DNA from: Selenomonas sp. AB3002
GTDB taxonomy: Bacteria > Bacillota > Negativicutes > Selenomonadales > Selenomonadaceae
Assembly (NCBI RefSeq): GCF_000702545.1
Contig: NZ_JNIO01000008.1
Span: forward strand, 1-64,000
DNA length: 64,000 nt
Reading direction: 5' to 3'
Under the pieces are notes generated by a model. That model ran no database searches and was not told where the DNA came from. It was given only the letters and a program-made list of their open reading frames with translations. The position numbers and the translations under genes are program-made. Below, piece after piece: positions 10,129 through 52,774 of the stretch; position 1 is the first letter of the stretch; the number at the start of each line of letters is the position of its first letter.

Positions 10129-10144
10129 CGGAGGCACAGACTAA

Positions 10145-10762: not shown

Positions 10763-11009
10763 GCCACGCCGCTTTCAAAGGTGCCGGTGAAAGTAATTTG
10801 ACACATTCCAGCGATTTTCTAAAGTGACAGAAAATGTCGCTTAGGTGTCACTTTACTTTTACCGGGAAATCGTGCCCTTACTTGACCTGAAAAGTAAAGC
10901 CAGTAAGAGCATTTAGGCGAAAAGTCAAGAGCATAACGTAAAACGTAAACACCAAAAGGTAAGAGAATTTACGTTTTGCGTGAACTCTTTACGAAAAGGA
11001 GGCAGGAAA

Positions 11010-11550: not shown

Positions 11551-11590
11551 CTTCCTATATATAAATGGCGTACAGTATCAATAGTCTAGA

Positions 11591-13743: not shown

Positions 13744-13750
13744 TTGCGAA

Positions 13751-13839
13751 CTGGCCCTAAAGGGCCAGTATAGCACTATTCTAAGAATAGTGCTATACTG
13801 GCCCTAAAGGGCCAGTATAGCACTATTCTTAGAATAGTG
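13751..13839. repeat. Large compound palindrome in the early promoter region
   Basis: CTGGCCCTAAAGGGCCAG (13751-13768) is followed by a 29-bp perfect palindrome centred at 13783 (TATAGCACTATTCT with its complement), then the same 18-mer again (13798-13815), then most of the 29-mer again. Positions 13751-13815 form one 65-bp near-perfect palindrome; the whole is also a 47-bp direct repeat. It can extrude as a cruciform or form strong RNA hairpins just before the first early gene. Confidence 0.85.
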
Positions 13840-38972: not shown

Positions 38973-39986
38973 ATGGAGGTACGGCGCACAAATATCAAAT
39001 GCCTGTATGATTCACAGGATATATCCCAGGACATAGCCGCTTTCCTCAAATCCTTCACTATCAATGAGGTGCTGGGCGGGGAGGCAGATGAAGCAGAAAT
39101 CTCCCTCCATGACCGGGAAGAGTTATGGATGGGGGACTGGATGCCGGAACTGGGGGCCACCATGGACATCACCCTGCAGGTTCAGAACTGGGAGGGTGAG
39201 GGAGATACCAGGGAGCTGCCTTTTGGCAAGTTCGATGTGGATGAAATCTCCATAAGCGGCTGGCCCCATGAAGTCAAAATCAAGTTGATTTCCGTACCTG
39301 TCACCGGCGGGATAAATTCCGTCAAGCGCACCAGGGCGTGGGAGAAAGTGAAACTTTCGGCCATTGCTCAGGACGTGGCAGGCGGGGTAGGCATGGAACT
39401 CTACTACGACACAGAGGAAGACCCCATGCAGGAGAGGGCAGAGCAGTCAGAGCAGACAGACCTTTCCTTCCTGCAGAAGCTATGCAAGGACGCAGGCCTT
39501 TCCCTCAAAGTCACGGATAACAAAATAGTTATCTTCGATGTGTCAAAGTATGAGAAGGAAGACCCGGTGCTGACCATCGTCAACGGCACCAGCGCGGTGA
39601 AATCCTTTGAGTGTAGGCAGACTGTCCACCAAATCTATAAGGCCTGCCATGTCAAATATAAGCACTCAAAGAAAGATGAACTCATAGAGTTTACTTTTAC
39701 AGACCCCAAAAGGGAGAAGGGCGAAACACTGGAAATCAACGAAAAAGTTGAATCCGTGGCTGAGGCTGAGAAGCTGGCCAAGAAGAAGCTCCATGAGAAG
39801 AATCTTGAAGAAACATCTGTCAGCCTCACCATGGCGGGCAATTTCGCCTTGCTGGCCTCCAACACTGTGGAGCTGAAGAATTTCCGCAGCTTCGATGGCA
39901 AGTATCTCATAACCAAAAGCTCCCATGAAGTGGGCAATGGCTACACCACGAAAGTGGATTTAAGGAGGGTGATTGATGGATACTGA
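38973..39986 (+). CDS. Tail protein D (phage late control gpD family)
   Basis: 337 residues. An N-terminal beta domain (LKSFTINEVLGGEADEAEIS), LSFLQKLCKDAGLSLKVTDN in the middle and a C-terminal NTVELKNFRSFDGKYLITKS are typical of gpD, the hub at the base of the tail spike. Its 3' end is repeated at window position 1. GGAGG precedes the ATG. Confidence 0.88.
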   Translation: MEVRRTNIKCLYDSQDISQDIAAFLKSFTINEVLGGEADEAEISLHDREELWMGDWMPELGATMDITLQVQNWEGEGDTRELPFGKFDVDEISISGWPHEVKIKLISVPVTGGINSVKRTRAWEKVKLSAIAQDVAGGVGMELYYDTEEDPMQERAEQSEQTDLSFLQKLCKDAGLSLKVTDNKIVIFDVSKYEKEDPVLTIVNGTSAVKSFECRQTVHQIYKACHVKYKHSKKDELIEFTFTDPKREKGETLEINEKVESVAEAEKLAKKKLHEKNLEETSVSLTMAGNFALLASNTVELKNFRSFDGKYLITKSSHEVGNGYTTKVDLRRVIDGY

Positions 39987-40392
39987 GGCGGAACGCCTGT
40001 TGAGGGGAATGGTAAGACCTGGTACCGTCACCAGCGTGAACGTGGCCAACAATACGGCCCGGGTGAGATTTGACGATAAGGACGGAATCGTAAGCCCGGA
40101 ACTACATATATTACACCGCTGCTCAGGGAAAAATAAGGATTACTGGGTGCCGGATATTGACGATCAAGTTTTATGTATCTTCAACAACAATGACAAGAAT
40201 TTCTCTACCGGCTGGATACTGGGCAGCTACTTCAACGAGAAGCAGCCGCCCCAGGTACAGAATTTGGATATCATGCGCTTCGATTTTTCGGATGGCTCAT
40301 ATTTTGAGTACAACCGAAAGAGCCACACCCTCAATGTGCAAATCACAGGGCCAATAAATATAAATGGCTCAGTTATCAATCTGAACTGCTAA
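39976..40392 (+). CDS. Baseplate assembly protein V (spike)
   Basis: 138 residues: OB-fold part (RPGTVTSVNVANNTARVRF) and a C-terminal beta segment (LDIMRFDFSDGSYFEYN). gpV forms the membrane-piercing spike whose tip is capped by the PAAR protein encoded next. ATG 39976 is preferred over TTG 39973 because of spacing from AAGGAGG. Confidence 0.88.
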   Translation: MDTEAERLLRGMVRPGTVTSVNVANNTARVRFDDKDGIVSPELHILHRCSGKNKDYWVPDIDDQVLCIFNNNDKNFSTGWILGSYFNEKQPPQVQNLDIMRFDFSDGSYFEYNRKSHTLNVQITGPININGSVINLNC

Positions 40393-40406
40393 AGGAGGCG
40401 GTGTAA

Positions 40407-40697
40407 ATGCCACCACAGACAAGATTGGGGGACAACGATACGGGACATGATGCCTGCCCGCCCAGAGGGCTGGCAACAGGCAGCCCGGATGTTATTGTGA
40501 ACGGCCAACCGGCGGGGCGTGTAGGAGATAGCTACCCTGCCCATTCCTGCCCCGCACACCCTCCACATAGTGGTGTAATAAATGCAGGAAGCAGCACCGT
40601 ATTCATCAACAATAAGGCGGCTGGGCGAATAGGTGACCCTGTATCATGCGGGGGCAGCGTGGACGTGGGCAGCCCTAATGTAATCACAGGGGGCTGA
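40407..40697 (+). CDS. PAAR-motif spike tip protein
   Basis: 96 residues. Repeated ATGSPDVIVNGQPAGRVGD and INNKAAGRIGDPVSCGGSV units with His and Cys residues make the metal-capped cone of PAAR proteins. It would sharpen the gpV spike. AAAGGAGG box upstream. Confidence 0.9.
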   Translation: MPPQTRLGDNDTGHDACPPRGLATGSPDVIVNGQPAGRVGDSYPAHSCPAHPPHSGVINAGSSTVFINNKAAGRIGDPVSCGGSVDVGSPNVITGG

Positions 40698-40701
40698 TGG
40701 A

Positions 40702-41241
40702 ATGTCATTTCTTTCTAACGTGGCGGGAAGCTACGCCAAAGGACTGCAACGGAGCTTGAACAACATGGCCCAGGGGGTGCTTTCCCAGGTGATGGGAAAA
40801 CTATCTTCCTTTGGCCTGTCCATGCCCCTGGGTAGCCTGGGAGATATCGTCTTTCAGGTATCCAGCCGCGAGGTTATCACCTTCGATGGCCTCAAGCGCA
40901 CCACCAAAGCCCGCTTTGGCACACATGAAATCAACGGCCAGAAACCTTTGCTTGAATACCTCGGCCCGGATGGGGAGGAAATAACCTTCACCATGCGTTT
41001 TTCCACCAGCTGGGGCGTGGATCCTACAGCGCAGGCCCAGCAGCTCAGGGAACTGTGCGAGAAGGGCGAGGCCATGTATTTGATTATTGGCAATCAGACC
41101 GTGGGAGCCAATATGTGGGTAATCGAAAGCGTGGGTGAATCCCTGGTATCCGTGGATAACATGGGGCGGGTAATCGTCTCAGAGGTTGATGTAACACTCA
41201 AGGAATATGTGCCCCTTATGGGAGGAGGTGAGGGCGCTTGA
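40702..41241 (+). CDS. Tail protein U (P2 gpU family)
   Basis: 179 residues. MPLGSLGDIVFQVSSREVIT, ARFGTHEINGQKPLLEYLG and MWVIESVGESLVSVDNMGR match the P2 gpU family (tail completion). Follows PAAR by four bases. Confidence 0.82.
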   Translation: MSFLSNVAGSYAKGLQRSLNNMAQGVLSQVMGKLSSFGLSMPLGSLGDIVFQVSSREVITFDGLKRTTKARFGTHEINGQKPLLEYLGPDGEEITFTMRFSTSWGVDPTAQAQQLRELCEKGEAMYLIIGNQTVGANMWVIESVGESLVSVDNMGRVIVSEVDVTLKEYVPLMGGGEGA

Positions 41242-41546
41242 TAATCGATGTGACGGCAGAAATGAAGGACATCAACTTTGTTCCTGCCTCAGAGTATGAA
41301 GAGATTCTGCAGAACGTGCGCACCATCATCAACACCCTCAAGAAAACCGTGCCCATGGACAGAGAATTTGGCATTAACGGTGAAGTCATAGACTTGCCCA
41401 TTGCAGCGGCTCAGGCGAAAATCACCGGCGAAATCGTGGCTGCAGTCAGCAAGTACGAGCCGCGGGCCAAAGTTGTATCTGTGGCCTATGAGGGCAAGGA
41501 AATGGACGGCACCCTGCAGCCTACAGTGAGGATAAAGATACAATGA
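41238..41546 (+). CDS. Baseplate wedge protein W (gp25-like)
   Basis: 102 residues. EYEEILQNVRTIINTLKKTV and DLPIAAAQAKITGEIVAAVS fit the gp25/W family of wedge proteins. TTG start, nine bases after GGAGGAGG and overlapping the gpU stop. The end overlaps gpJ. Confidence 0.82.
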   Translation: MIIDVTAEMKDINFVPASEYEEILQNVRTIINTLKKTVPMDREFGINGEVIDLPIAAAQAKITGEIVAAVSKYEPRAKVVSVAYEGKEMDGTLQPTVRIKIQ

Positions 41547-42661
41547 ACCTACAAAATTTAGCAGACCTGTCCTTTGCGGATAGAGACCCTGCAGACATTG
41601 AATCCAATGTCATAACCATAGCAGAAGGAATCCTGGGCAGGAAGCTGGCAAGGGCTGACCCTCTGAGGCTTTTCCTACTGGGGCTTGAATCCGTCATTAT
41701 CCAGCAGCGGGAAATCATAGACCAATCGGCAAAGATGAACCTGCTGGCCTACGCTGTGGGGGATTATCTTGACCATATCGGCATACTGGTGGGCTGTGAA
41801 CGGCTGCAGGCAACTGCCGCCAATACAACCCTCAGGTATACCCTTTCGGCAGCACGGGAGCAGGCCACACTCATTCCTATAGGGAACCGCGTTACGGCTG
41901 GGGATGGCGTATATTTCGCCACCACAGAGGCACTTTCCATAGCTGCCGGGCAGACCACGGGGGATGTGGCGGCCACCTGTACCATTAAGGGAACACAGGG
42001 CAACAGCTACGCCGTAGGGGAGCTGACCAAAATGGTTGACCCCCTGCCATTTGTGGCCAGTGTGACCAACCTCACCGCCACGGCAGGCGGGGCTGATGTG
42101 GAGACGGATGATTCATACCGTCTGCGAATCCAGCAGGCCCCAGAAAGTTATTCCTGCGCTGGGAGCAAGGGGGCCTATATCTTTTGGACAAAGACGGCCT
42201 CAGCCCTTATCTCAGATGTGGCAGTGATTTCTCCTAACCCATGTGAGGTGAATGTTTATCCTCTGCTGGAGGGCGGGCAGCTGCCGGGGGCGGAAATGCT
42301 GACCTTAGTCAGCAATACCTTGAATGCCAGAACCGTGAGGCCTCTCACCGACCAGGTGAGCGTTTTGGCCCCCACGGTGAAAAGCTATAATGTCACCCTC
42401 ACCTACTACATAGATTCAGACGATGCCACCAGCGCCGTGGCCATACAGGCTGCTGTGCAAAGTGCTGTCTCTGAATTCGTAGCCTGGCAGAAAGAGCACC
42501 TGGGGCGGGATATCAACCCCACGGAACTCTATTACAGGGTGAGGGCGGCAGGAGCAAAGCGGGCTGTGATTACTGAGCCTGTCTTTGCCGCCGTGGCTGC
42601 CAGTGAGGTGGCCATAGAAAACACCATCACGGTGAACTTTGGAGGATTGGAAGATGGTTAA
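41543..42661 (+). CDS. Baseplate protein J
   Basis: 372 residues. GVYFATTEALSIAAG, SYRLRIQQAPESYSCAGSKGA and the NPCEVNVYPLLEGGQLPGAE loop are typical of gpJ wedge proteins, which link the baseplate to fibres. Four-base overlap with gpW. Confidence 0.9.
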   Translation: MNLQNLADLSFADRDPADIESNVITIAEGILGRKLARADPLRLFLLGLESVIIQQREIIDQSAKMNLLAYAVGDYLDHIGILVGCERLQATAANTTLRYTLSAAREQATLIPIGNRVTAGDGVYFATTEALSIAAGQTTGDVAATCTIKGTQGNSYAVGELTKMVDPLPFVASVTNLTATAGGADVETDDSYRLRIQQAPESYSCAGSKGAYIFWTKTASALISDVAVISPNPCEVNVYPLLEGGQLPGAEMLTLVSNTLNARTVRPLTDQVSVLAPTVKSYNVTLTYYIDSDDATSAVAIQAAVQSAVSEFVAWQKEHLGRDINPTELYYRVRAAGAKRAVITEPVFAAVAASEVAIENTITVNFGGLEDG

Positions 42662-44414
42662 AGAGTTTAAGACCCTGAGCCTTCTGGAAATCCTCCCTGA
42701 AAGTATCAGGGGGGATCCTCAGATTGAAGCGGCGGCCAGCGCGTTGGATGCAGAACTGCAGGCCGTCACGGCAGACATCAAAGAAAACCTGCTCATAAGC
42801 AGGATTGATGAACTGCCGGAGCGTGTCCTTGACCTGCTGGCCTGGCAATGGCATGTAGATTTCTACAGGCCCTTGGGCATGGATATAGACACCAAACGGC
42901 GGCTTATCCGTGAATCCATAGCCTGGCACCGTATCAAGGGCACCCCTGCAGCCGTGGAAAAAGTGCTGGCAGCGGCTTTCGTGGAATCCTGGGTGGAAGA
43001 GTGGTATGAATACGGCGGCAGCCCCGGCTATTTCCGGGTGACTATCTCAGACGTAATCACTGACCCGGAGGAACAGGCCAACATACTGGCGGCCATCAAC
43101 AGCGCCAAGAACGAACGTTCCTGGCTGGATGCTTTGCGCTATCTGCTGGTATTGAAGGACGAACTCACTGCCAGCGACCTGCTGGCCCTGCTGGAAGAAA
43201 CCGGCTTTATCGAACGTTACCCATGGGTGGGCAGGTTCGCAAACGGTGCCTATCTGGCAGGCGGGGAGCATGGGGCAGCCTTCTGTGATGGCGCCTACAC
43301 GGCCAATGGAACCATCAGGGCCAACGGGGCAGCACCAGGGGAGCAAAATCCCCAGCAGGTGTGGCCGAATATCGCCAATGGCGAATACCAGGCGGATGGC
43401 AGCATTTACGCCAAGTGCTGGAACCATACGGGGCTTATCTATGCCAACTCTGTAGGCATGGAAGTTTTCGTGGATTTGGTGAATCTCTTCCTGTCTGACC
43501 TCTACAGAATAAACATCTGGGCAGATGGCAGATTCAAGGCAGATGGCACCTTCACAGCAGGCTGGGACAACCCCATTGCAGAGGCCTTCACGGATACCAC
43601 GGCGCTGGCTATCAGCGACACCGATAACGTCACTGAAACATCCGGGGGAACATTATCCACCCATGAGGCTGAAGAAGTAGGGCTGGTGAAACTGTTCTAT
43701 GCAGACGGTGCTTTCTATCCCGGGAAACCTATCACGGCAGATGGCAGCCACTACGCCGGAGGCCTTATGCTGGCAGATGCCTTTGACGGCCTCACCAGCG
43801 AACCCCGGAAACCGAAGCTGGCCAATGGGCAGTATAAGGCCAACGGGGCGGAGAAACCCACGGCTGTGGCTATCAATGCCCGCGCCAACAGTGATGAAAA
43901 CCTCAGCAGCAGGATAGTTCTGACAACTGAGGAAGTGGCGGCAGAAACCTGCAGCACCACCGAAAGAAATTCAACCAACGTGGTCACACCTCACATGGAC
44001 ACCGTGGACACTGGCACCCTGGCAGACGGGCAGGCCGTGGCCAACGGCAGCCATAAGGCCAGCGGGCACATGATGGAAGACAGCCTGAGCCTTGCCCACG
44101 CCGTAGGGCTGGCAGACAATAACGGCACCATCTATGCTGACGGCACCAGCAGGGCAGATGGCTCTATGATGGCTTTTGCCATGGAAGACGCCATCTCCAT
44201 CACCGTGGGGATGGGACTTGTGGCCAACGGCAGGTATTTGGCCAACGCGGCAGGGGCCAGAAGGGCAGACGGGGCCTACAGGGCCAACGGCAGCACCTTC
44301 CCGGCACAGATTTACAATGCCAGATTTAATGCAGATGGCACCATCAAGGCAGATGGCAAGCATATCACCGGCTGGGGCGGCGCTGTCTGCGATTACAAGT
44401 ACATAGCAGCATAG
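42654..44414 (+). CDS. Tail protein I with a long ADG/ANG-repeat extension
   Basis: 586 residues (ATG 42654 after GGAGGA; TTG 42639 possible). Residues 1-190 are a P2 gpI-type baseplate protein (GMDIDTKRRLIRESIAWHRI, KGTPAAVEKVLAAAF). The remaining 390 residues carry over 15 short repeats of the form NGxYxADG or DGxxxADG (ADGRFKADGTFTAGWD, ANGRYLANAAGARRADGAY), likely a beta-repeat stalk. P2 gpI lacks such a tail. It may replace or anchor a fibre that presents the DGR target. Confidence 0.85.
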   Translation: MVKEFKTLSLLEILPESIRGDPQIEAAASALDAELQAVTADIKENLLISRIDELPERVLDLLAWQWHVDFYRPLGMDIDTKRRLIRESIAWHRIKGTPAAVEKVLAAAFVESWVEEWYEYGGSPGYFRVTISDVITDPEEQANILAAINSAKNERSWLDALRYLLVLKDELTASDLLALLEETGFIERYPWVGRFANGAYLAGGEHGAAFCDGAYTANGTIRANGAAPGEQNPQQVWPNIANGEYQADGSIYAKCWNHTGLIYANSVGMEVFVDLVNLFLSDLYRINIWADGRFKADGTFTAGWDNPIAEAFTDTTALAISDTDNVTETSGGTLSTHEAEEVGLVKLFYADGAFYPGKPITADGSHYAGGLMLADAFDGLTSEPRKPKLANGQYKANGAEKPTAVAINARANSDENLSSRIVLTTEEVAAETCSTTERNSTNVVTPHMDTVDTGTLADGQAVANGSHKASGHMMEDSLSLAHAVGLADNNGTIYADGTSRADGSMMAFAMEDAISITVGMGLVANGRYLANAAGARRADGAYRANGSTFPAQIYNARFNADGTIKADGKHITGWGGAVCDYKYIAA

Positions 44415-44427
44415 AAGGAGGCAAAGG

Positions 44428-44874
44428 ATGAACAATCTGGGATTTGCCGACACCATGCAGGAAATGCGTGGGGCGGTGCATTTGGAAGTCTACAAGGCGG
44501 GGAAACTTATCCTTGCAGACGATGACCACAACCTCATTGTGGCGGCGGGCCGTGCCAAGCTGGCCCGCATGCTGGGGGGCGGGTACACGGGACACATCAC
44601 CCAGGTGGGCGTGGGTACCGGCTCAGCGGCGGCAGCTTCAGGAGATACGGGCCTTACCAATACGGTGAAAGTCAATGTGTCTTCTGTGGAATATGCCAAC
44701 AACAAAGTAAAATTCAACTTTGTGATAGGCACCAACGTGGCCAACGGGCTGGCAATCCGTGAGTTTGGCCTGTTCTTTGGTGATGGCACTCTCTTTTCCC
44801 GCCGGGTGAGAAAGTCCACCATCGGCAAGGAAGACGATATCCAGATTACTGGATACTGGGAAATCTATTTCTGA
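44428..44874 (+). CDS. Putative tail-fibre/adaptor protein (148 aa)
   Basis: Contains HITQVGVGTGSAAAASGDTG and NGLAIREFGLFFGDGTLFSR, the kind of pattern seen in N-terminal attachment domains of phage fibres (trait: REFGLF near the end). AAGGAGG precedes the ATG. It probably joins the gpI stalk to the variable receptor-binding protein; inferred from position. Confidence 0.58.
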   Translation: MNNLGFADTMQEMRGAVHLEVYKAGKLILADDDHNLIVAAGRAKLARMLGGGYTGHITQVGVGTGSAAAASGDTGLTNTVKVNVSSVEYANNKVKFNFVIGTNVANGLAIREFGLFFGDGTLFSRRVRKSTIGKEDDIQITGYWEIYF

Positions 44875-44891
44875 CACAGGAGGAAGAGTAA

Positions 44892-45329
44892 ATGGCTTAT
44901 GTAGCAGAATCTGCAACGTGGAAAAACGGCGTATACCAGCTTGAGACCACAGATCCCTTGCTGGGCGGCGCTAACGGCGTGATGAATGAGGCCATCAAAG
45001 ACCTGGCCTGCCGCACGCTGTACTTGAAGACTGAGCAGGACAAAATCAAGAATGAGATTCAGACTGCCCGGGGCGGCAAGGCAAGCCTCAATGCCCGCTT
45101 CGAGGCTTTGGAAATGACCTCCAAGCAGGGCGATTTCACCTTCAATGGCACCACCGGCGTTACTGTTTCCCATACTATCGGCAACACGAATTATGTTGTC
45201 AATGTGGCAGCCACGGCAAGCACCGGCGGCGATTTGGGAGATATCTATATTTCCCGTGGCGCTTATTACTTCACCGTCTACAACACCGGCGGGTACAAGG
45301 GCAATGGCCGTTATCAGATTTTGAACTAA
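44892..45329 (+). CDS. Tail-fibre region protein (145 aa)
   Basis: A helical N-terminal half with coiled-coil character (LYLKTEQDKIKNEIQTA) and a beta-rich C-terminal half (FNGTTGVTVSHTIGNTNYVV). This helix-then-beta design suits a short trimeric fibre. Strong GGAGGAAG box. Family not recognised. Confidence 0.56.
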   Translation: MAYVAESATWKNGVYQLETTDPLLGGANGVMNEAIKDLACRTLYLKTEQDKIKNEIQTARGGKASLNARFEALEMTSKQGDFTFNGTTGVTVSHTIGNTNYVVNVAATASTGGDLGDIYISRGAYYFTVYNTGGYKGNGRYQILN

Positions 45330-45345
45330 TGAGGGAGGCATAGAA

Positions 45346-45750
45346 ATGCTGGATATCGTTGTAATCAATCCTGACATGAACCACGCGGAATTTTCCGTGA
45401 ATGAAAAAGACCATTCCGTTATTGACCTCCATGATTTCACCCTGGGCGACCTCAGGGTGAGGGGGCGGAGCTTTGACCTCAGGGACTACTGGGGCGGCAT
45501 TGCCCGCATTTTCTGCGAGTACAATGGTGACCTCTCCATGGATAACACCGTGGATCACCCCTTTATGTTGGCAGAAATCTATGTGCCGGAAATCGACACC
45601 AGGAATGTTCCCACCGGCCAGCGCGATGCCGGCGGGCAGGAAATCACCAAAACCGAAATTGTTTGGCCTGACCTGTCTGACACGCGGATCCTGCTTTATC
45701 CTATCCCCGGCCCCGTGGAAACTGAGAACGACAATGAGGAGGAAAACTAA
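45346..45750 (+). CDS. Protein directly upstream of the DGR target (134 aa)
   Basis: Beta-rich (NHAEFSVNEKDHSVIDLHDF, LRDYWGGIARIFCEYNGDL), with a Glu/Asn-rich end. It stops one base before the DGR target ATG, so the two are likely translated together. Possibly a chaperone or carrier for the variable protein; no family recognised. Confidence 0.56.
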   Translation: MLDIVVINPDMNHAEFSVNEKDHSVIDLHDFTLGDLRVRGRSFDLRDYWGGIARIFCEYNGDLSMDNTVDHPFMLAEIYVPEIDTRNVPTGQRDAGGQEITKTEIVWPDLSDTRILLYPIPGPVETENDNEEEN

Positions 45751-47151
45751 ATGATCAAAGACCTTTCCCTGAAAGCAATTCGTGAGCAGATTACATCCGG
45801 CATGCGTGATGTTACCTTTGTGACAGACGATGGCGGCACCACGGAAATGGTGTATATTCCGAAATTCACTATTCCGGCAGGGGCTTATGATGGCGGCGCT
45901 TTTCCTGCTGAGGCATTGAACCTGGGTGGCTTCTTCATCGACAAGTATCAGTGTTCTCACCAGACCGGCGATAATGCCAATATCCCCGTATCCCTGCCGG
46001 GGCGTATTCCCTGGGCAAATGTCAACCAGACTGAGGCAAAGACGGCCTGCGCTGCCCGCCTTATCAACGGCGTGGCCTGCCACCTGCCCACTATGAAGGA
46101 ATGGGCAACTGTCTGCTTCCTGACTAAGCTGCTGGGGCATGATATCCACGGCAATAACAACTATGGCAAGGATTACCGCGACAGCAACGCCTGGGGTAAC
46201 TATGGCGTACCTGATAAGACTTGTGACGGGCGCGTACTCACCGGCACCGGCCCTGTCTCCTGGAGCTGTGACGGCACCAGCAAGGGCGTGTTTGATATCG
46301 TGGGCAATGTCTGGGAGTGGATGGACTTCAACATCACCGACGGTATCTACACCCACAAGAAAACTGCCCTTATCAACGATGCAGATGGTATCACGGCTGT
46401 GGATACCACCATTACCCTCGACACCGTGGAAGATATCGACGCATGGCCTGAAACCGGCCTCATCCTTATCGGCAGTGAGTACATCACTTATGGTGCCATC
46501 GACAAGCAGACCTCTACCACGGCTGTGCTGTCCGGCTGCACCCGTGGGGCAAAAAGTTCCACGGCAGCCACCCACGCAAATGATGTTACCGTCTACCAGC
46601 TTACGGATTACTGTGTAATCCCCGGTGGCGCAACCGCTTATCTCACGGCAGACATTTCTGCTTCTGCTACCTCCTTCGCCTTCTCCGGCCTTGTCAATGG
46701 CCCGGACAATGACGGTTTTGCCGTAGGTGATACCCTGCAGATGGGCACTGAGCAGGCCGTTGTCACGGCGGTGGAGAGCAACACCCTCACCGTAAGCCGT
46801 GGCGCAAATGGCAGCACTGCCATCGCTCATTCCACTGGAGACGGCTTCACTAAGATTTCCCCGCAGATGAATAATAGTGACCCTGCAGGCGATGCCTACC
46901 AGTACGCCAAGATTAACACCATGCGGTTTGAATCCGACCTGGCACCCCTTGCCCTTCCTAAGGCTGTAGGTGTCGGTACTGAGGAATGGAAGGACGGCTT
47001 CTGGATCAGGAGCAAAGGCTCCCGGGCGGCCATCCGTGGTGGCAACTGGAACGTTGGCGGCAATGCCCGTTCTGGCTTCTACCTGAGCCTGTACGACGCG
47101 CCGTCGGATCGCCTCGCTTACATCGGCTTCCGCGCCGCTTTGTCTATCTGA
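45751..47151 (+). CDS. DGR target: FGE-sulfatase/C-type-lectin-fold variable tail protein
   Basis: 466 residues, the likely receptor-binding tip. The fold is that of formylglycine-generating-enzyme domains: GGFFIDKYQCS (59-69), LPTMKEWATVCF (112-123), FDIVGNVWEWMD (181-192), and a terminal GFRAALSI. Two related beta domains of about 78 residues (206-283 and 291-368; each with a G-xxxIGxE-like core and a late H-x-x-x-D/G turn) are inserted before the C-terminal lectin part. The last 43 codons are the VR. Residues V435, S446, Y448, D449, D453, L455 and Y457 are all Asn in the template. No active-site Cys pair of a true FGE is evident, so it is a binding scaffold. Confidence 0.93.
   Translation: MIKDLSLKAIREQITSGMRDVTFVTDDGGTTEMVYIPKFTIPAGAYDGGAFPAEALNLGGFFIDKYQCSHQTGDNANIPVSLPGRIPWANVNQTEAKTACAARLINGVACHLPTMKEWATVCFLTKLLGHDIHGNNNYGKDYRDSNAWGNYGVPDKTCDGRVLTGTGPVSWSCDGTSKGVFDIVGNVWEWMDFNITDGIYTHKKTALINDADGITAVDTTITLDTVEDIDAWPETGLILIGSEYITYGAIDKQTSTTAVLSGCTRGAKSSTAATHANDVTVYQLTDYCVIPGGATAYLTADISASATSFAFSGLVNGPDNDGFAVGDTLQMGTEQAVVTAVESNTLTVSRGANGSTAIAHSTGDGFTKISPQMNNSDPAGDAYQYAKINTMRFESDLAPLALPKAVGVGTEEWKDGFWIRSKGSRAAIRGGNWNVGGNARSGFYLSLYDAPSDRLAYIGFRAALSI
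47017..47145 (+). repeat. DGR variable region (VR)
   Basis: Aligns without gaps to the TR at 47632-47760 (offset 615). Nine differences (47053, 47054, 47087, 47092, 47095, 47107, 47113, 47114, 47119) all fall where the TR has A: four to G, four to T, one to C. The only other mismatch in the block is C to T at 47140, at the 3' end where the initiation-of-mutagenic-homing segment lies. Confidence 0.96.
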
Positions 47152-47175
47152 AATCTGTCAGCCTGATAATCTGAT

Positions 47176-47195
47176 GGCCTCGCGGTAGCGAGGCC
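47176..47195 (+). promoter_or_regulatory. DGR hairpin/cruciform with GRNA tetraloop
   Basis: GGCCTCGC and GCGAGGCC form a perfect 8-bp stem around GGTA, 30 bp after the VR. Studied DGRs (Bordetella phage BPP-1) have a 7-10 bp GC-rich stem with a 4-base GRNA loop just past the VR that aids target recognition. No T run follows, so it is not a simple terminator. The TR is not followed by such a hairpin, which fits a target-only signal. Confidence 0.85.
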
Positions 47196-47218
47196 TTGAC
47201 CTCAAAGGAGAAATTGAA

Positions 47219-47593
47219 TTGGAAGAAAACAACAGCAACGCACCAGCTAAAAGCGGATTTAAAGGACTTAAAATCCAGACGAAGACAGAGGATATGATTG
47301 GGTATATGTATGTAGTGCTCAGGCAGTATCCGAAATCTGAGAAATTCGTATTGGCAGCAGAGACTAAAAGAGTGGCCCTGGAACTGATGGAGCTTATCAT
47401 ATCCTGCAATAAGCACTATATGAAGAAGACCACCATGAGGGATGTGGACATACAGCTGGATACTTTGCGGGCCATGGTAAGGCTGGGGCATACATTAGGC
47501 TTCCTGAAGAATCATCCCTATGAGGTATTATCAGGCAAGATAGACGAGATAGGCCGTATGATTGGCGGCTGGATGAAAAGCATACAATCATAA
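47219..47593 (+). CDS. avd: DGR accessory variability determinant (Avd)
   Basis: 124 residues, all helical. YPKSEKFVLAAETKRVALEL and the end IDEIGRMIGGWMKS are typical of bAvd proteins, which form a positively charged pentamer bound to the RT and needed for template-primed cDNA synthesis. TTG start eight bases after AAAGGAG. It lies between VR hairpin and TR, the usual order. Confidence 0.92.
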   Translation: MEENNSNAPAKSGFKGLKIQTKTEDMIGYMYVVLRQYPKSEKFVLAAETKRVALELMELIISCNKHYMKKTTMRDVDIQLDTLRAMVRLGHTLGFLKNHPYEVLSGKIDEIGRMIGGWMKSIQS

Positions 47594-47631
47594 TATCTTG
47601 TAGGGCGTATGCTGTATCTGCGCACTGGCCC

Positions 47632-47760
47632 GGCTCCCGGGCGGCCATCCGTGGTGGCAACTGGAACAATGGCGGCAATGCCCGTTCTGGCTTCTACCTG
47701 AACCTGAACAACGCGCCGTCGAATCGCAACGCTAACATCGGCTTCCGCGCCGCTCTGTCT
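47632..47760 (+). repeat. DGR template repeat (TR)
   Basis: The invariant donor for the VR. Translated in the VR frame it has Asn (AAC or AAT) at all seven variable sites, codons that A-mutagenesis can turn into many residues without making stop codons. Adenines in structural codons nearby are kept in the current VR. Confidence 0.96.
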
Positions 47761-47915
47761 TTACGTCAGAAGTTTTAGGGCAATGCTGGCCCTAATCCCG
47801 GAACTAAGACAAAGGAGCATACGTCCTTGTTTTGAAAAAAGCAAAAATAAGTTATCACGCCCCCGCTTAGTAGGCAGAAAGACCGAAAAGCGGGCGCTAT
47901 TTATTTGGGAGAACT
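47761..47915 (+). ncRNA. TR downstream spacer: probable template RNA extension
   Basis: 155 bases between TR and RT. Two hairpins are visible: AGGGC/GCCCT near 47777-47793 and CCCGCTT/AAGCGGG near 47862-47895. In characterised DGRs the RNA past the TR binds RT and Avd and carries the priming adenosine. A short GGGAGAA ribosome-binding site for RT ends it. The RNA boundaries are inferred. Confidence 0.6.
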
Positions 47916-48965
47916 ATGAAAACATACAACGACCTATATCCTAAAATCTATGACTTTCAGAATCTCCTGCTGGCCTACCAGAAGGCAAGAAAATGCAAGA
48001 GGTACAGGCCGGAGGTGCTGAAATTCACAGAGCACCTGGAAGAAAACCTGATAGATATACAAAACTCTCTGATCTACAAGACTTATGAGCCTGGCAGATA
48101 CAGAGAGTTTTATGTTTATGACCCTAAAACACGGCTGGTGCTGGCAGCGCCATTCCGTGACAGAGTGGTACACCATGCCTTGTGCAATCTCATAGAGCCA
48201 ATCTTTGACAGCACCTTCATTTCTGACAGCTACGCCTGCAGGAATAACAAGGGCACACATAAGGGCGTGGAAAGGCTTGTATATTTTCTAAGGAAGATGC
48301 AGGCCGAACATGGCAAAGTCTACGCCCTAAAGTGTGATATCCATCATTACTTCCAGAGCATAGACTGCTCCATTTTGGAGGGGCTTATCAGGAAGAAGAT
48401 ATGGGACAGGGAAACTCAGTGGCTTTTCCATATCATTCTCTACAGCGCCGTAAGTGGAGAAGGCAGGGCCGTGGGCGTTCCCCTGGGGAATCTCACCAGT
48501 CAGCTGTCCGGCAATATCTATCTCAATGAATTGGATCACTTTGTGAAGCAGGAGCTGAAGTGCAAACACTACCTGCGCTATATGGATGATTTCATATTGC
48601 TGCACCCGGACAAGGCCCAGCTCCATGAATGGCTGAGAGAAATCAGGGTGTACCTTGAGGAAAGGCTGCTGCTGAAACTCAATGGCAAAACATCCGTCTT
48701 TCCCATCAATCAGGGCATAGATTATCTGGGCTATAGGATTTGGCCTTACAAGCTGCTGCTTCGCAAGAAGTGCATAACTCGCATGAGGAGAGGGATGGAA
48801 TACCTGGCTAAGCACAGGGACGCATATCCTCAGGAACATATCCAATCGGTAATAGCTTCATGGTACGGCCATGCCCAGCGGGCAGACGTGCCGAATTTGA
48901 AAGACTGGCTTGAGCAGGAGGCCTGGGAGAAATTTGGCATTGTGCTCAGGAGAAAGGAAGAATGA
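47916..48965 (+). CDS. DGR reverse transcriptase
   Basis: 349 residues. RT motifs in order: FRDRVVHHALCNLIEP (80-95), CDIHHYFQSID with Asp141, VPLGNLTSQLSGNIYLNELD with the DGR-type LGxxxSQ (190-196), RYMDDFILL with catalytic YMDD (222-225), and IDYLGYRIW (268-276). It lacks extra domains. With Avd it copies TR RNA into cDNA with random bases opposite template A, and the cDNA then replaces the VR. The 3' end is two bases from the holin start. Confidence 0.97.
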   Translation: MKTYNDLYPKIYDFQNLLLAYQKARKCKRYRPEVLKFTEHLEENLIDIQNSLIYKTYEPGRYREFYVYDPKTRLVLAAPFRDRVVHHALCNLIEPIFDSTFISDSYACRNNKGTHKGVERLVYFLRKMQAEHGKVYALKCDIHHYFQSIDCSILEGLIRKKIWDRETQWLFHIILYSAVSGEGRAVGVPLGNLTSQLSGNIYLNELDHFVKQELKCKHYLRYMDDFILLHPDKAQLHEWLREIRVYLEERLLLKLNGKTSVFPINQGIDYLGYRIWPYKLLLRKKCITRMRRGMEYLAKHRDAYPQEHIQSVIASWYGHAQRADVPNLKDWLEQEAWEKFGIVLRRKEE

Positions 48966-48966
48966 T

Positions 48967-49401
48967 ATGTATGACTTTATTTTTGGCGTTCTGCCCACAA
49001 GGGCAAACGCTGCAGGCAGCAGCCTGCTGGGGGCATGTGGAATGGTAATAGCATATCTGTTTGGCGGGTGGAGCGCTTCACTGGAGGCCCTGGTGGTGGC
49101 CATGGCCATAGACTACTTAACCGGGGTACTGGCAGCGTATATCAACCCGCATTTGAAACTTGATTCAAGGATTGGCTTTAAGGGCATAGGCAAGAAACTC
49201 ATGATACTTGCCCTTGTTTCCCTGGCTCATTTCCTTGACAGAGCCACGGGGCAGGAAATTATAAGCCTTATCGTGACGTGGTTTTATTTCGGCAATGAGG
49301 GCCTTTCCATCATAGAGAACGCCGCCAAGGCAGGCGTTCCCGTGCCGGAAAAGCTCAAGGAATCTTTGAAGCAGCTGCATGAGGAGGAAAGAGAACCATG
49401 A
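48967..49401 (+). CDS. Phage holin family protein
   Basis: 144 residues with three likely membrane helices: GSSLLGACGMVIAYLFGG, ALVVAMAIDYLTGVLAAYI and MILALVSLAHFLDRA/ISLIVTWFYF. The pattern SSLLGACG...MAIDYLTGVLAA... resembles the phage_holin_4 (toxin secretion/phage lysis holin) family. It would open the inner membrane for the amidase. AAAGGAAG box; ATG 48967. Confidence 0.82.
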   Translation: MYDFIFGVLPTRANAAGSSLLGACGMVIAYLFGGWSASLEALVVAMAIDYLTGVLAAYINPHLKLDSRIGFKGIGKKLMILALVSLAHFLDRATGQEIISLIVTWFYFGNEGLSIIENAAKAGVPVPEKLKESLKQLHEEEREP

Positions 49402-49538
49402 GCGACAGCAAAAACAAGGAACAGAATCAGAATGTAACCAGAACCGTGCCGGAATACAATCAGGTAAAGCCGGAGGACGATAACCTGGTAATCAAGGCTA
49501 AGCAGGAGGCCCAGAAAAAGAAGGAGGCAGGGGAATGA
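49398..49538 (+). CDS. Small hydrophilic lysis-cassette protein (46 aa)
   Basis: Charged and without membrane segments (MSDSKNKEQNQNVTRTVPEY). It overlaps the holin stop (ATGA) and the amidase start, so translation is coupled across all three. GGAGGAAAG box upstream. Role unknown. Confidence 0.6.
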   Translation: MSDSKNKEQNQNVTRTVPEYNQVKPEDDNLVIKAKQEAQKKKEAGE

Positions 49539-50029
49539 TGGAAAGAGCGAACGTCATAGACACGGGGCTTGAATTCGTGAGAGACCTCGAAACCCGCTAT
49601 AAGACAGACATGATTGTCATTCACCACACGGGCCGCAATGATATCGACGCAAGCGCCCAGCAGATTCACGGCTGGCATATCAACCAGCAGGGCTGGGCAG
49701 GAATCGGCTACCATTACGTGATCCGCAAAAATGGCACCATAGAACAGGGCCGCCCACATTGGACGGTAGGAGCGCATGCCTACGGGGAGAATTCCCACAC
49801 CATCGGCATACACCTTTCCGGGGATTTCATGGAAGCAAAGCCTACCTGCGATCAGATTGAGAGCGTGGCCATGTTGCTGGCAAACCTTTGCACGGATTAT
49901 GGCCTGCCTATCGACAGGGGACATATTGTGGGACACCGTGACCTCATGGCCACCAGCTGCCCCGGAGACAATCTTTATAATATGCTTGATTTGATTATCG
50001 GCAAAGCAATCTACTACGCAGTACAGTGA
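49535..50029 (+). CDS. Endolysin: N-acetylmuramoyl-L-alanine amidase
   Basis: 164 residues, Amidase_2/PGRP fold. Zinc ligands are readable as His30 (IVIHHTGRN), His134 (IVGHRD) and Cys142 (TSCPGDNLY). It cuts the amide bond between muramic acid and L-Ala. No signal peptide, so it depends on the holin. Starts ATGATG. Confidence 0.93.
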   Translation: MMERANVIDTGLEFVRDLETRYKTDMIVIHHTGRNDIDASAQQIHGWHINQQGWAGIGYHYVIRKNGTIEQGRPHWTVGAHAYGENSHTIGIHLSGDFMEAKPTCDQIESVAMLLANLCTDYGLPIDRGHIVGHRDLMATSCPGDNLYNMLDLIIGKAIYYAVQ

Positions 50030-50045
50030 CGGAGGCACAGACTAA

Positions 50046-50663
50046 ATGACGCGGCAGGAAATAGCTTTAGAAATCGCAAAAGGACTTATCGAGACCGGCA
50101 TAGAGGGCGGCTTCGACGCTATCAGCTGCAGCACGGGGGGAGACTATCCCTCCCTGGGCTGCAGCCAGTGGGAGGGTGACAGGGCGGATGACCTTCTCGA
50201 CAGAATCCCCGGCGGGGAAAAATTCGTGGACAGATCCTATAGCGACATTGCGACGGCGGGCGAACTGGAGGAGCTGGCTCAGCTTATCAGCAGTGAAGCA
50301 GGGCAGGAGGTACAGCGGCAAAAACTACAGGAAGACTGCCTGGATTATGTAGACACACTGCAGGGCATAGTTTTCCTTGACGATAGCCGCTGCATCATTT
50401 ACGCCGGTATGTGGTGCCCTACCAGCACCAGCGTGGTGGCCCGCTTCATCCGGCGGCGGCAGGAACGCGGCTATAACATCAGGAGCCTGGAAACCTTGCG
50501 GGATATGTTCCGTGATGAATATGCCCAGGCTGCCTGCATTCCCAGAAACTGCTATGAAGGCTATGCCAACAGGGCAGAAAACACCTTCCAGTACGTGGCA
50601 GCCATAGACCTCTCCACGCCCTACGGCGTGCCCGTCTACGGTGAGGGGCCTTTCGGACGCTGA
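50046..50663 (+). CDS. Uncharacterised lysis-region protein, possibly muralytic
   Basis: 205 residues, next to the amidase, with GGAGG upstream. SCSTGGDYPSLGCSQWEGDR recalls the Gly-x-Ser-x-Gly-xx-Gln motif of lysozyme-like and chitosanase-like folds, followed by DDLLDRIPGG. That would make it a second peptidoglycan enzyme, but no clear catalytic Glu can be assigned. Six Cys residues are unusual for a cytoplasmic phage enzyme. Confidence 0.55.
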   Translation: MTRQEIALEIAKGLIETGIEGGFDAISCSTGGDYPSLGCSQWEGDRADDLLDRIPGGEKFVDRSYSDIATAGELEELAQLISSEAGQEVQRQKLQEDCLDYVDTLQGIVFLDDSRCIIYAGMWCPTSTSVVARFIRRRQERGYNIRSLETLRDMFRDEYAQAACIPRNCYEGYANRAENTFQYVAAIDLSTPYGVPVYGEGPFGR

Positions 50664-50720
50664 GCCACGCCGCTTTCAAAGGTGCCGGTGAAAGTAATTT
50701 GACACATTCCAGCGATTTTC

Positions 50721-50756
50721 TAAAGTGACAGAAAATGTCGCTTAGGTGTCACTTTA
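50721..50756. promoter_or_regulatory. Perfect inverted repeat upstream of the spanin genes
   Basis: TAAAGTGACA (50721) and TGTCACTTTA (50747) form a 10-bp perfect inverted repeat with a 16-base spacer. It lies in the 247-bp gap before the overlapping spanin-like pair and could be an operator. The same sequence occurs at 10820-10855. Confidence 0.55.
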
Positions 50757-50836
50757 CTTTTACCGGGAAATCGTGCCCTTACTTGACCTGAAAAGTAAAG
50801 CCAGTAAGAGCATTTAGGCGAAAAGTCAAGAGCATA

Positions 50837-50882
50837 ACGTAAAACGTAAACACCAAAAGGTAAGAGAATTTACGTTTTGCGT
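50837..50882. promoter_or_regulatory. Hairpin just before the spanin ribosome-binding site
   Basis: ACGTAAAACGTAAA (50837) pairs with TTTACGTTTTGCGT (50869) with one G-T pair, 18-base loop. It ends about 14 bases before the AAAGGAGG that serves both overlapping genes, so it may affect their translation. Confidence 0.55.
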
Positions 50883-50910
50883 GAACTCTTTACGAAAAGG
50901 AGGCAGGAAA

Positions 50911-51339
50911 TTGAATGAGAAAACTAAATTTATTGGGGCGGGCCTTGCTGTTGTGCTTGTTATCCTTGCTCTGGCTGGCACCCTTTGGCTATTGTTCGGA
51001 GACATCAGAACAGATCCCGGAACAAGTGACCCTGTCAATGAGCGAATTCAAGACCTTGAGAGAGAACAGCAGGAAGCAGCAGGAGCTATTGATGAAGCTA
51101 TCGAAAGAGCTGCAGACAGCCAGGGAACAGCTGCAGACCTCGCGGGGCGAATTGACCATAGTCAGGAACTCACTCACAGTATCTCAATCGCAAACGATGG
51201 AGCTAGAGAGGGAACTGGCAGAGCAGAAGCAGCTATCGGAGAAGCTGCAGAAGCAATTGACAGAGCTGCAGGCCTCGCAGATGAATGCGAAGAACTCATT
51301 AGAAGCAGCGAATCTATATTTGCAAAGTATGACAGATGA
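50911..51339 (+). CDS. Inner-membrane spanin-like protein, nested in another gene
   Basis: 142 residues from TTG 50911, eight bases after GGAGG. An N-terminal membrane anchor (FIGAGLAVVLVILALAGTLW) is followed by a long helical, Ala/Glu/Arg-rich periplasmic part (EREQQEAAGAIDEAIERAAD). That is the i-spanin (Rz) plan. The whole frame lies inside the 50915-51451 gene in a different frame. Either alone could be a chance frame, but its signal anchor and coiled-coil composition argue that it is real. Confidence 0.62.
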   Translation: MNEKTKFIGAGLAVVLVILALAGTLWLLFGDIRTDPGTSDPVNERIQDLEREQQEAAGAIDEAIERAADSQGTAADLAGRIDHSQELTHSISIANDGAREGTGRAEAAIGEAAEAIDRAAGLADECEELIRSSESIFAKYDR

Positions 51340-51451
51340 AATCAAAGCAGAGCGGCAGGCCCGGGAAAAGACCGAAAAACGCCTTAGGCAGCAGAAGACC
51401 CTATGGCAGATATTGTCTATTGCGTGTGGAGTGTGGGCTGTGGCGAAGTAA
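50915..51451 (+). CDS. Secreted coiled-coil protein, spanin-like partner
   Basis: 178 residues. A signal sequence (LLGRALLLCLLSLLWLAPFG) ends at Cys27, then a long coiled coil (about 40-155) and a hydrophobic end (LWQILSIACGVWAV). Cys27 could be lipid-modified, but the residues before it (F-G-Y) do not fit a classic lipobox. It starts four bases after the overlapping TTG gene and shares its ribosome-binding site. Lambda Rz/Rz1 are also overlapped; spanins fuse the inner and outer membranes, which makes sense in an outer-membrane-bearing Negativicutes host. Confidence 0.66.
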   Translation: MRKLNLLGRALLLCLLSLLWLAPFGYCSETSEQIPEQVTLSMSEFKTLRENSRKQQELLMKLSKELQTAREQLQTSRGELTIVRNSLTVSQSQTMELERELAEQKQLSEKLQKQLTELQASQMNAKNSLEAANLYLQSMTDEIKAERQAREKTEKRLRQQKTLWQILSIACGVWAVAK

Positions 51452-51491
51452 CTTCCTATATATAAATGGCGTACAGTATCAATAGTCTAGA

Positions 51492-51558
51492 AAGTTACAC
51501 ACAAGTTACAAAAATGGCGATAATCCCATTAAAATAGTAGCTCCCAGTTCTCCAAGCG
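51492..51558. other. attR: prophage-chromosome junction
   Basis: Collinear with 11591-11657 and then different. Two AAGTTAC arm sites (51492, 51503) remain on the phage side. Bases after 51558 are chromosomal and lead into a terminator at 51590. No tRNA could be recognised at the junction. Confidence 0.75.
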
Positions 51559-51589
51559 TTAATCCGCTTACAAGAGAATATTGCAAGAT

Positions 51590-51620
51590 CCCGTCAGACA
51601 TGGTTTGGCGGGGTTTTTTT
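51590..51620 (+). terminator. Terminator just right of attR
   Basis: A 7-bp stem (CCCGTCA/TGGCGGG, one G-T pair) and seven T residues. It probably belongs to a chromosomal gene whose body now lies left of the prophage, outside the window. Confidence 0.65.
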
Positions 51621-51719
51621 ATGCTTGTCAGGCCATGGAGCGATGGCAGTCAGTGCTGGTTGTTGTGCATGATGACGAATGTTTTTGTAGAATCTACATC
51701 TATTTACAAAAATTAATCC

Positions 51720-51748
51720 TTGACAAAAGGGGTGAAGGCAGGTATTAT
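51720..51748 (+). promoter_or_regulatory. Promoter of the trp operon
   Basis: TTGACA (51720-51725), 17-base spacer, TATTAT (51743-51748): a near-consensus vegetative promoter placed about 45 bases before the T-box stem I. Confidence 0.83.
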
Positions 51749-51798
51749 AAAGACCATCAGTTGGAGTTACAACTTTACAGCGTTTAAATCGTAGAGCA

Positions 51799-52081
51799 GA
51801 AAGAGTAGTCAGATTGCAGTCCTTCAGCGAGTCGGGGACCGGTTTTCCGGAGGTGGGAGGCCCGATGGACGAGGTTTGATGAATGGTTCTGTGAGAGCTC
51901 ACCGAAAGCATTGCATAAATGCCAGTAGGCTGGGACGGCTGCCTCCGTTACAGGGCTAGGGCATCGAGCTTTTCTCCGTGCCTGAAATGAGGAGCCTTTC
52001 TTTAGGTTTGAATCGGGTGGCACCGCGAAGATATTTCGCCCCGGCAGGAAGAGATATTTCCTGCCGGGGCTTTTGTTTTTT
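51799..52081 (+). promoter_or_regulatory. T-box riboswitch (tRNA-Trp) controlling the trp operon
   Basis: The leader has a stem I region with the AGTCAG-type and GGTGG distal motifs, the T-box sequence TCGGGTGGCACCGCG at 52013-52027, and a terminator with a 12-bp stem (CCCCGGCAGGAA) at 52039-52069 followed by a T run. GAATGGTTC at 51881 places TGG, a Trp codon, at the likely specifier position (51884-51886). Uncharged tRNA-Trp would stabilise the antiterminator and switch on the Trp biosynthesis genes that follow. The codon call depends on folding I did by eye. Confidence 0.92.
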
Positions 52082-52090
52082 ATAATTCCT

Positions 52091-52147
52091 CTTAGCCTGC
52101 CCCGCTTGCGGGGAAGGTGGCAGCCCGCAGGGCTGACGGAAGGGGGA
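52091..52147 (+). repeat. Intergenic repeat, copy A (before trpF)
   Basis: TTAGCCT, a CCCCGCTTGCGGGG hairpin, a second GC-rich hairpin and CGGAAGGGGG. The same architecture appears inverted at 52781-52835. It looks like a REP/BOX-type dispersed element. Confidence 0.6.
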
Positions 52148-52159
52148 GGAGGCTGTGAG

Positions 52160-52774
52160 ATGATAGTCAAGATATGCGGGATGAAGACAGAGGAGGCTGC
52201 CTTGGCGGCAGAAGCTGCCGGGGCTGATCTTTTGGGCTTTATCTTCTACAAGGGCAGCCGCCGCTATGTGGCGCCGGAGATTGTGAAAGAGATTTCCACC
52301 GGGATCAGGCATAGCAAGAGAGTGGGCGTCTTCGTGGATGCTCCCTTATCCGAAGTCAATGAGATTGCAGAGTTCTGCAGCCTTGATTACGTACAGCTGC
52401 ATGGCCATGAAGATGAGGCTTATGCCAGACGGGTAGCAAGGCCGGTCATCAAAGCTTACCGTTATGGAGATAACTTCAACGCTGATGAGGCCGGGCATTA
52501 TCCGGCAGAAATCATACTGCTGGACAGCTTTGTGAAAGGTGAGGCGGGAGGCACGGGCATGACCTTCGCCTGGCAGGAAGCCAGCCGGGAGGTGGCCAGC
52601 CTTGGGAAGCCCTTGCTGGTGGCAGGGGGGATTTCTGAGGAGAATCTTTCCGAGGTGGCGGAAACCTTTCATCCCTACGGCGTGGATGTGTCCGGCAGCC
52701 TGGAGGAGCAGGGAGAGAAATCAGTGAGGCTGATAACTTCCTTCCTGCGGGAGGCAGAGCGATGGCGGGGCTGA
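52160..52774 (+). CDS. trpF: Phosphoribosylanthranilate isomerase
   Basis: 204 residues, TIM barrel. VKICGMKTEEA (Cys catalytic base), FYKGSRRYVAPE, VQLHGHEDE, SFVKGEAGGTGMTF and VAGGISEENL are the family's phosphate and active-site segments. It converts phosphoribosylanthranilate to CdRP, third step of Trp synthesis. ATG 52160 follows GGAGG; an upstream in-frame extension runs through the repeat and is rejected. Confidence 0.93.
   Translation: MIVKICGMKTEEAALAAEAAGADLLGFIFYKGSRRYVAPEIVKEISTGIRHSKRVGVFVDAPLSEVNEIAEFCSLDYVQLHGHEDEAYARRVARPVIKAYRYGDNFNADEAGHYPAEIILLDSFVKGEAGGTGMTFAWQEASREVASLGKPLLVAGGISEENLSEVAETFHPYGVDVSGSLEEQGEKSVRLITSFLREAERWRG

Follow-up and report, generated by a model that had tools for sequence, protein, structure and literature searches.

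A BPP-1-type diversity-generating retroelement on a contractile-tailed Selenomonas prophage, with a variable repeat that follows its template repeat

The window analyzed here is a stretch of 64,000 nucleotides from the start of a contig of Selenomonas sp. AB3002 (NZ_JNIO01000008.1, our contig C8), most of which is taken up by a prophage. At the end of the tail-fibre block of this prophage lies a diversity-generating retroelement (DGR), i.e., a target gene with a variable repeat (VR), the accessory gene avd, a template repeat (TR) and a reverse transcriptase (RT). The initial annotation, made from the letters alone, had named a complete series of these parts, and each of them was recovered where it had been placed, in the same order and on the same strand:

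45751–48965, + strand: whole DGR block, in the order target with VR, hairpin, avd, TR, RT
45751–47151, + strand: DGR target gene, 466 aa, last gene of the tail-fibre block; predicted C-type-lectin protein of the formylglycine-generating enzyme (FGE) type
47017–47145, + strand: VR, 129 bp, at the 3' end of the target
47123–47151, + strand: probable initiation of mutagenic homing (IMH) site, the invariant 3' end of the VR; left limit taken from the last A site, VR position 106
47176–47195, + strand: hairpin/cruciform with an 8-bp GC-rich stem and a GGTA loop, 30 bp after the VR
47219–47593, + strand: avd, 124 aa, TTG start (PF22296, phrog_3206, NF033474)
47632–47760, + strand: TR, 129 bp, 23 adenines; GSRAAIRGGNWNNGGNARSGFYLNLNNAPSNRNANIGFRAALS in the target frame
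47753–47897, + strand: spacer part of the template RNA, matching Rfam RF02921 (RT-14), with covarying helices
47916–48965, + strand: DGR RT, 349 aa, YMDD (RVT_1, 8ub7, BPP-1 brt)

The two enzymatic and accessory components are recognized by several independent collections of models. Avd is matched by Pfam (PF22296, bAvd, E 8.4e-31), by PHROGs (phrog_3206, Avd, E 1.5e-34) and by the NCBIfam equivalog DivGenRetAVD (NF033474, 111 bits against a cut-off of 80), the last of which identifies it as the DGR accessory protein. The RT is matched by RVT_1 of Pfam (E 4e-17), and its best match among solved structures is 8ub7 (E 8e-72), which we take to be the RT of BPP-1; this match and the intact catalytic YMDD together point to an RT of the DGR clade with the YxDD motif, and it is 41.5% identical to BPP-1 brt over 98% of the length. 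The only other match to this RT in the genome (E 0.001; L007, G000:C8:1514327–1515214) passes the NCBIfam model for group II intron maturases (357 bits against a cut-off of 300) and belongs to a separate element. A search of the genome with the TR returned four places—two TRs and two VRs—with one pair belonging to a duplicated contig end. Remote second targets are excluded, since the TR matches elsewhere in the genome amount to this duplicated end only. Taken with the comparisons given below, the block is almost certainly a BPP-1-type DGR on a contractile-tailed prophage that rewrites its VR from its TR.

The TR and VR align without gaps over 129 bp and differ at 10 positions, of which nine fall on TR adenines within seven Asn codons while the remaining one is a non-A site near the 3' end, just as the initial annotation had read them. 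Adenines account for 23 of the 129 TR bases, distributed over 10 AAY codons and three codons with one A each, and the hypergeometric probability of such a concentration of differences on adenines is 3.6e-7.

Stronger evidence for the direction of this process comes from related phages. One scan each of viral contigs and of genome contigs, along with a search of the genus, yielded 77 loci with relatives of the RT (L014–L090), some of which are overlapping stretches of one contig. Three of these (L014, L064 and L075), identical where they overlap, were counted once as the phage of S. ruminantium SIG239, the closest relative and a member of the same genus (RT identity 82.5% in DNA and 87% in protein). 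Between the two phages the DNA of the target, avd, spacer and RT is 82–91% identical, and all 23 TR adenines are kept. The SIG239 TR differs from that of the window at positions 6, 12, 24 and 75. At A sites the two VRs have scattered, with 18 of 23 different; at the 106 non-A sites they differ at only four, which are again positions 6, 12, 24 and 75, with the same letters as in the respective TRs; given four VR differences, the chance of their falling on the same four positions is 2e-7. Each VR matches its own TR at every non-A site except 124. Outside the VR the targets are 84.4% identical, and at this rate of drift (15.6%) around 16 non-A differences would be expected in the VR against the four observed. 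These mirrored changes indicate that the TR has overwritten the VR after the two phages split; thus, as judged from the aligned repeats, information has flowed from TR to VR, and mutagenic retrohoming has occurred since the divergence. A second pair, L015 from an IMG/VR contig and L076 from S. ruminantium UBA6979, shares its 122-bp TR letter for letter; of the 17 sites at which the VRs differ, 16 are A sites, and these sequences likewise show overwriting of the VR from the TR. Thus, the comparison of VRs among related Selenomonas prophages, which the initial annotation had put forward as a check, uncovers variation at TR-adenine sites in both cases. Self-comparison of the 77 loci gave a TR/VR-like pair in 52, or 41 distinct pairs after the removal of 11 duplicates, in which 557 of the 591 differences are on TR adenines (1126 of the 4853 TR bases); these pairs were filtered for at least 70% A, and hence the tally describes the set and is no test of the claim. 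The SIG239 and L015/L076 comparisons are independent of that filter.

The tenth difference between TR and VR, a C to T change at position 124 (site 47140), is common to the window phage and SIG239, with T in both VRs and C in both TRs, and is therefore probably an IMH/IMH* marker and not a product of mutagenesis. The same comparison in BPP-1 yields 22 differences, and the four non-A ones among them are all at the 3' end (120, 124, 127 and 128); therefore, the difference at position 124 is of a known sort. Accordingly, the earlier claim of adenine-specific rewriting stands for the nine A sites, and site 124 is not to be counted as rewriting. The sequence would place the IMH boundary between VR positions 106 and 124. 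Beyond this boundary, the 73 bases around the hairpin (47146–47218) have a DNA fold z-score of -4.06. A published rule for DGR hairpins specifies a GC-rich stem of 7–10 bp, a 4-nt GRNA loop and a distance of 4–34 bp from the VR (PMC3240598), and the hairpin described here agrees with that rule in stem, loop and distance. SIG239 carries the same hairpin. Among the 41 relatives, 31 have a perfect stem of at least 6 bp with a loop of 3–8 bases near the VR end, when sought from 10 bases before to 90 bases after it (a count without a null).

The target protein matches the Pfam FGE-sulfatase family (PF03781) at residues 78–196 (E 4.5e-7; 30.2 bits against 23.3), and its best sequence match in the PDB is TaqVP (5vf4, E 3.5e-15) over residues 7–191. 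These matches point to an FGE-subtype C-type-lectin variable protein with a C-terminal VR, in keeping with the lectin-fold target proposed earlier. An extra insert precedes the VR, at about residues 205–375; it amounts to roughly 105 residues and, among 12 aligned targets, is present in the four Selenomonas ones only. It matches phrog_1101 (tail protein), phrog_4406 (virion structural protein) and phrog_7578 (unknown function), and two stretches within it look alike by eye. An AlphaFold model of the target from the 12-sequence alignment, with a mean pLDDT of 50 and values below 50 at residues 432–444, is too poor to place the insert; the best fold match of this poor model in Foldseek is TaqVP. 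Since the target closes the fibre block, and by analogy with Mtd, its lectin end is read as the receptor-binding tip, which probably contacts the host surface.

The region between the TR and the RT offers a further point of interest. The match to RT-14 scores 56.2 bits against a gathering cut-off of 48.1 and extends from the last 8 bases of the TR to 18 bases before the RT, whereas the BPP-1 spacer at the same place matches not RT-14 but the Rfam family Phage_DGR (104.7 bits). Phage_DGR (RF03022) has no match at E 0.1 within 45000–52200 of the window, and neither family has a clan in the search output. RT-14 reaches the gathering cut-off in three of 16 relatives, each time leading off from the TR end in the direction of the RT, whereas another 17 loci have no Rfam match at gathering. 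A looser RT-14 search (E up to 1) gave matches in seven of 11 records, two over the cut-off, along with sub-cut-off matches in four of 14 control genomes, and found none in BPP-1, in the genome of L079 or in the Selenomonas phages L015 and L076. RT-14 covers part of these DGRs, not all. Across 398 genomes of the phylum it occurs at 14 places in 12 genomes, two of the places being the window's own two copies; 13 are over the cut-off, and in this search 14 control genomes gave no hit. A relative of the window RT lies downstream at all 14 places, within about 55 bases at 13 of them (at L113 the RT is about 610 bases away, beyond a second RNA), and a relative of avd lies upstream at all 14. At 11 of the places, a TR/VR pair with mostly TR-adenine differences ends at the RNA start; among the remaining three, L111 is cut by the contig end and two belong to the two-RNA locus of G225.

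A structure derived from nine of the 14 aligned spacers (L016, L017, L023, L078 and L079 were left out) has 87.7% paired cells, as against 62.9% when shuffled and 34–50% when the partners are slid by 1–3 columns, a count favorable to itself in that it uses the same nine spacers, two pairs of which are near-duplicates. The spacer alone folds as RNA weakly better than its shuffles (z -1.9; eight of 200 shuffles as good), and of these two lines of evidence the helix count is the stronger. In BPP-1 the spacer has a known role in priming cDNA synthesis. The RT-n motifs are said to have been described in an earlier paper. A text search of the literature retrieved nothing on "RT-14 RNA" or RF02921; the motif description itself, which may hold a DGR link, lay outside the text covered. 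The one paper found to mention DGRs and to cite the motif description (PMC8143477) does so, in the passage concerned, for two protein domains and not for the RT-14 RNA. On the whole, it is rather likely that the orphan RT-14, a structured RNA whose name reflects no more than its vicinity to reverse transcriptases, supplies the spacer half of the DGR template RNA across a broad clade of this phylum's phages and prophages, with a fold that Rfam does not link to the BPP-1 spacer. If true, DGRs would start mutagenic cDNA synthesis from RNAs of at least two distinct architectures; the link would open DGRs to searches with RNA models and mark out a candidate RNA for priming outside BPP-1. As a novelty of the locus it is a modest one. 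At another locus, L115, a DGR spacer with an RT-14 match has an overlapping weak match to RT-15 (5553–5635; 26.9 bits against a cut-off of 82); other orphan RT-n families of Rfam may also be DGR RNAs.

The DGR is part of a larger element, whose attachment site and second copy had gone unnoticed in the initial annotation; its limits and other features are as follows:

11641–51558, strand not applicable: prophage, 39.9 kb, between the 17-bp att cores 11641–11657 and 51542–51558
11808–12830, - strand: integrase (phrog_1, E 4e-47)
45271–46830, - strand: antisense open reading frame (ORF), 519 aa, from the ORF list
1–11657, + strand: second reading of the prophage right end at the start of contig C8, repeating 39868–51558
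about 5852–9064, + strand: whole DGR block of this second copy, with VR 7118–7245, TR 7732–7859 and RT 8015–9064

PHROGs recovers a tail sheath (phrog_23, E 1.5e-92), baseplate wedge, tape measure, portal, terminase, holin and amidase, and Pfam a tail protein I, which bears out the contractile-tailed prophage of the initial annotation. The att core also ends a gene on contig C2, where it is joined to the integrase end of the phage (attL), and this gene is rpsI, which codes for the 30S protein S9 (NF001099, 202 bits against 112); therefore, the prophage is the segment 11641–51558, integrated in the 3' end of rpsI. To its right lies host DNA with a T-box (51783–52046) followed by trp genes (TrpC and TrpB over the NCBIfam cut-offs, TrpF matched below). 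In two of the five congeners examined, relatives of the integrase adjoin the rpsI end (L094 and L098, 71% and 79% identical). A megablast search of window 30000–51500 against the phage collection found no relative. At 13750–13839, next to a probable repressor gene (13103–13606, weak DicA-type match), is a 47-bp unit of two dyads, ACTGGCCCT/AGGGCCAGT and ACTATTCT/AGAATAGT, which occurs twice in the window and once in the attL-linked reading on contig C2. This change in copy number is either a true difference between the phage readings or an assembler slip, and the repeats may constitute an operator array.

The second reading of the prophage right end has no substitution relative to 39868–51558 and 40 single-base indels, of which 37 are losses in the copy (30 of them of G); all are confined to the opening 7.7 kb of the contig (window 1–7739). 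It runs through the 17-bp att core exactly into the phage left end, and its junction is of the attP type (phage–phage); therefore, some of the phage DNA had been excised or joined into concatemers when it was sequenced, unless the phage sits in the host as a tandem lysogen. In their pattern the indels resemble long-read errors that were left uncorrected; hence, the frameshifts that they bring about in the VR (7133) and TR (7739) are not to be read as biology. A second, degenerate DGR in the window was considered and set aside, the differences being indels only and at a contig end. Gene calls in window 1–7739 are unreliable, with tail genes split by single-G losses.

From these observations the following course of events may be proposed. 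The carrier would be a temperate Selenomonas phage with a contractile tail and an integration site in rpsI; from its BPP-1-type DGR the TR and the RT-14-type spacer would be transcribed. By analogy with BPP-1, from which the enzymatic steps are taken, the RT with Avd would make cDNA from the TR, placing random bases opposite adenines, and this cDNA would replace the VR upstream of the IMH boundary, aided by the GGTA-loop hairpin. As a result, the residues of the 10 AAY codons and of the three one-A codons would be variable in the lectin-fold end of the tail-block protein, and this varied end would probably contact the host surface. The presence of the parts, the adenine specificity of the differences and the TR-to-VR overwriting after divergence are the portions of this scheme that can be read from the sequences themselves. 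From the intact genes and repeats we infer that the DGR is active at present.

That last point is where a different reading has its best footing, namely, that the DGR is a recent fossil, with a VR rewritten in the past and the system now silent, e.g., from an unexpressed avd or RT. The two phage readings in the one assembly do share their VR without an A-site substitution; however, the reading frames of the RT and avd and the TR itself are intact, and all 23 TR adenines persist in SIG239 at 82–91% DNA identity, where loss of function would have let them drift, which makes a silenced element unlikely. The indels of the second reading lend themselves to another alternative, under which the copy at 1–11657 is a second, decaying prophage with a broken DGR of its own, since several tail genes, the VR (7133) and the TR (7739) carry frameshifts. 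This is quite improbable: decay would have to have left 11.6 kb without a substitution while producing 37 losses among 40 indels (30 of G), all in the first 7.7 kb, a pattern as for an uncorrected long-read contig end; moreover, the copy meets the left end of the phage precisely at the 17-bp att core. Even less credible, to the point of being negligible, is that the TR/VR pair arose by chance or by ordinary gene conversion and that the RT next to it is unrelated, e.g., a group II intron maturase. It is true that the best NCBIfam match of the RT is a group II maturase model, but at 126 bits it is far below the cut-off of 300, and the genome's actual group II maturase is the separate element noted above at C8:1514327 (357 against 300). 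The adenine bias (p 3.6e-7), the best solved match to a BPP-1-type RT, the presence of Avd and the co-evolution of the repeats, in which VRs follow their own TRs at non-A sites and scatter at A sites, all stand against it.

There are nevertheless points that weigh against the interpretation of the block as a DGR that rewrites its VR so as to vary the surface of the target. The VR of the second copy has no A-site substitution relative to the first, so that the assembly shows no variation within the culture, although few reads may underlie that copy. The tally of 41 pairs is partly circular, and 25 of the 77 loci gave no pair under the filter. Moreover, the model of the target is poor, so that the surface position of the variable residues rests on analogy with TaqVP, TvpA and Mtd.

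When set beside known systems, the locus parallels BPP-1 (mtd/VR-avd-TR-brt), a DGR that has also been reconstituted in E. coli (PMC12875486), in its order and strand, in the size of its TR and VR (129 bp as against 134), in the gap between TR and RT (155 as against 144), in its hairpin with an 8-bp stem and 4-nt GRNA loop and in having non-A differences only at the 3' end. It departs from BPP-1 in that its target is nearest TaqVP and not Mtd, its spacer is RT-14 and not Phage_DGR, its hairpin lies 30 bp from the VR, its integration is in rpsI and not at a tRNA 3' end, and its tail is contractile, BPP-1 being a short-tailed phage. The DGR of the Thermus aquaticus prophage provides, in TaqVP, the best sequence match, the best fold match (from a poor model) and a VR likewise at the very C-terminus; however, the Selenomonas target is around 85 residues longer (466 as against 381), with the insert before the VR. 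TaqVP is assigned to the FGE subtype in PMC6328139. The SIG239 prophage DGR is nearest of all, with an RT 87% identical, the same target length and hairpin and a near-identical TR, and is set apart by its VR at 18 of 23 A sites and by four non-A TR changes, each mirrored in the VR. Going by their description, DGRs of Faecalibacterium prophages are alike in being borne by temperate phages, though in other hosts; PMC11792537 reports VR variation in reads for them.

One survey alone counts 948 non-redundant DGRs (PMC6642488), and the locus is an ordinary, if clean, further example of a well-known kind. A literature text search for Selenomonas and DGR together returned, in the text covered, nothing beyond a rumen virus review. 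What the close relatives supply is a natural experiment: with TR changes mirrored in the VR and A sites scattering, the overwriting of VR by TR is made apparent without reads. This natural proof is one of three modest extras of the locus, next to the attP-type junction and the assignment of the spacer to RT-14.

Certain related loci depart from the standard arrangement. At L114 (contig C59 of G225; 1980–3640, locus coordinates), and also at L115 (4349–5984), the stretch from avd to the RT of a related DGR holds several template-like copies. At L114 there are four such copies, which differ mutually at non-A sites too, and two of them are followed by an RT-14 RNA. One copy (3226–3337) matches the expressed VR (1981–2092) without a difference over 112 bp, and a VR on another contig of the same genome (L122) is 99% identical to that copy, with flanks at about 84%. 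The array looks like a set of stored or reusable templates; loci with multiple TRs have already been reported (PMC6642488), the exact copy of a VR within a template array being the odd feature. At L116 (3601–4158) a search with avd found no match in the locus; there an RT-14 RNA follows not only the TR (RNA at 4004–4151) but also the VR within the target ORF (RNA at 3711–3871), and this VR looks like a duplicated TR-spacer unit.

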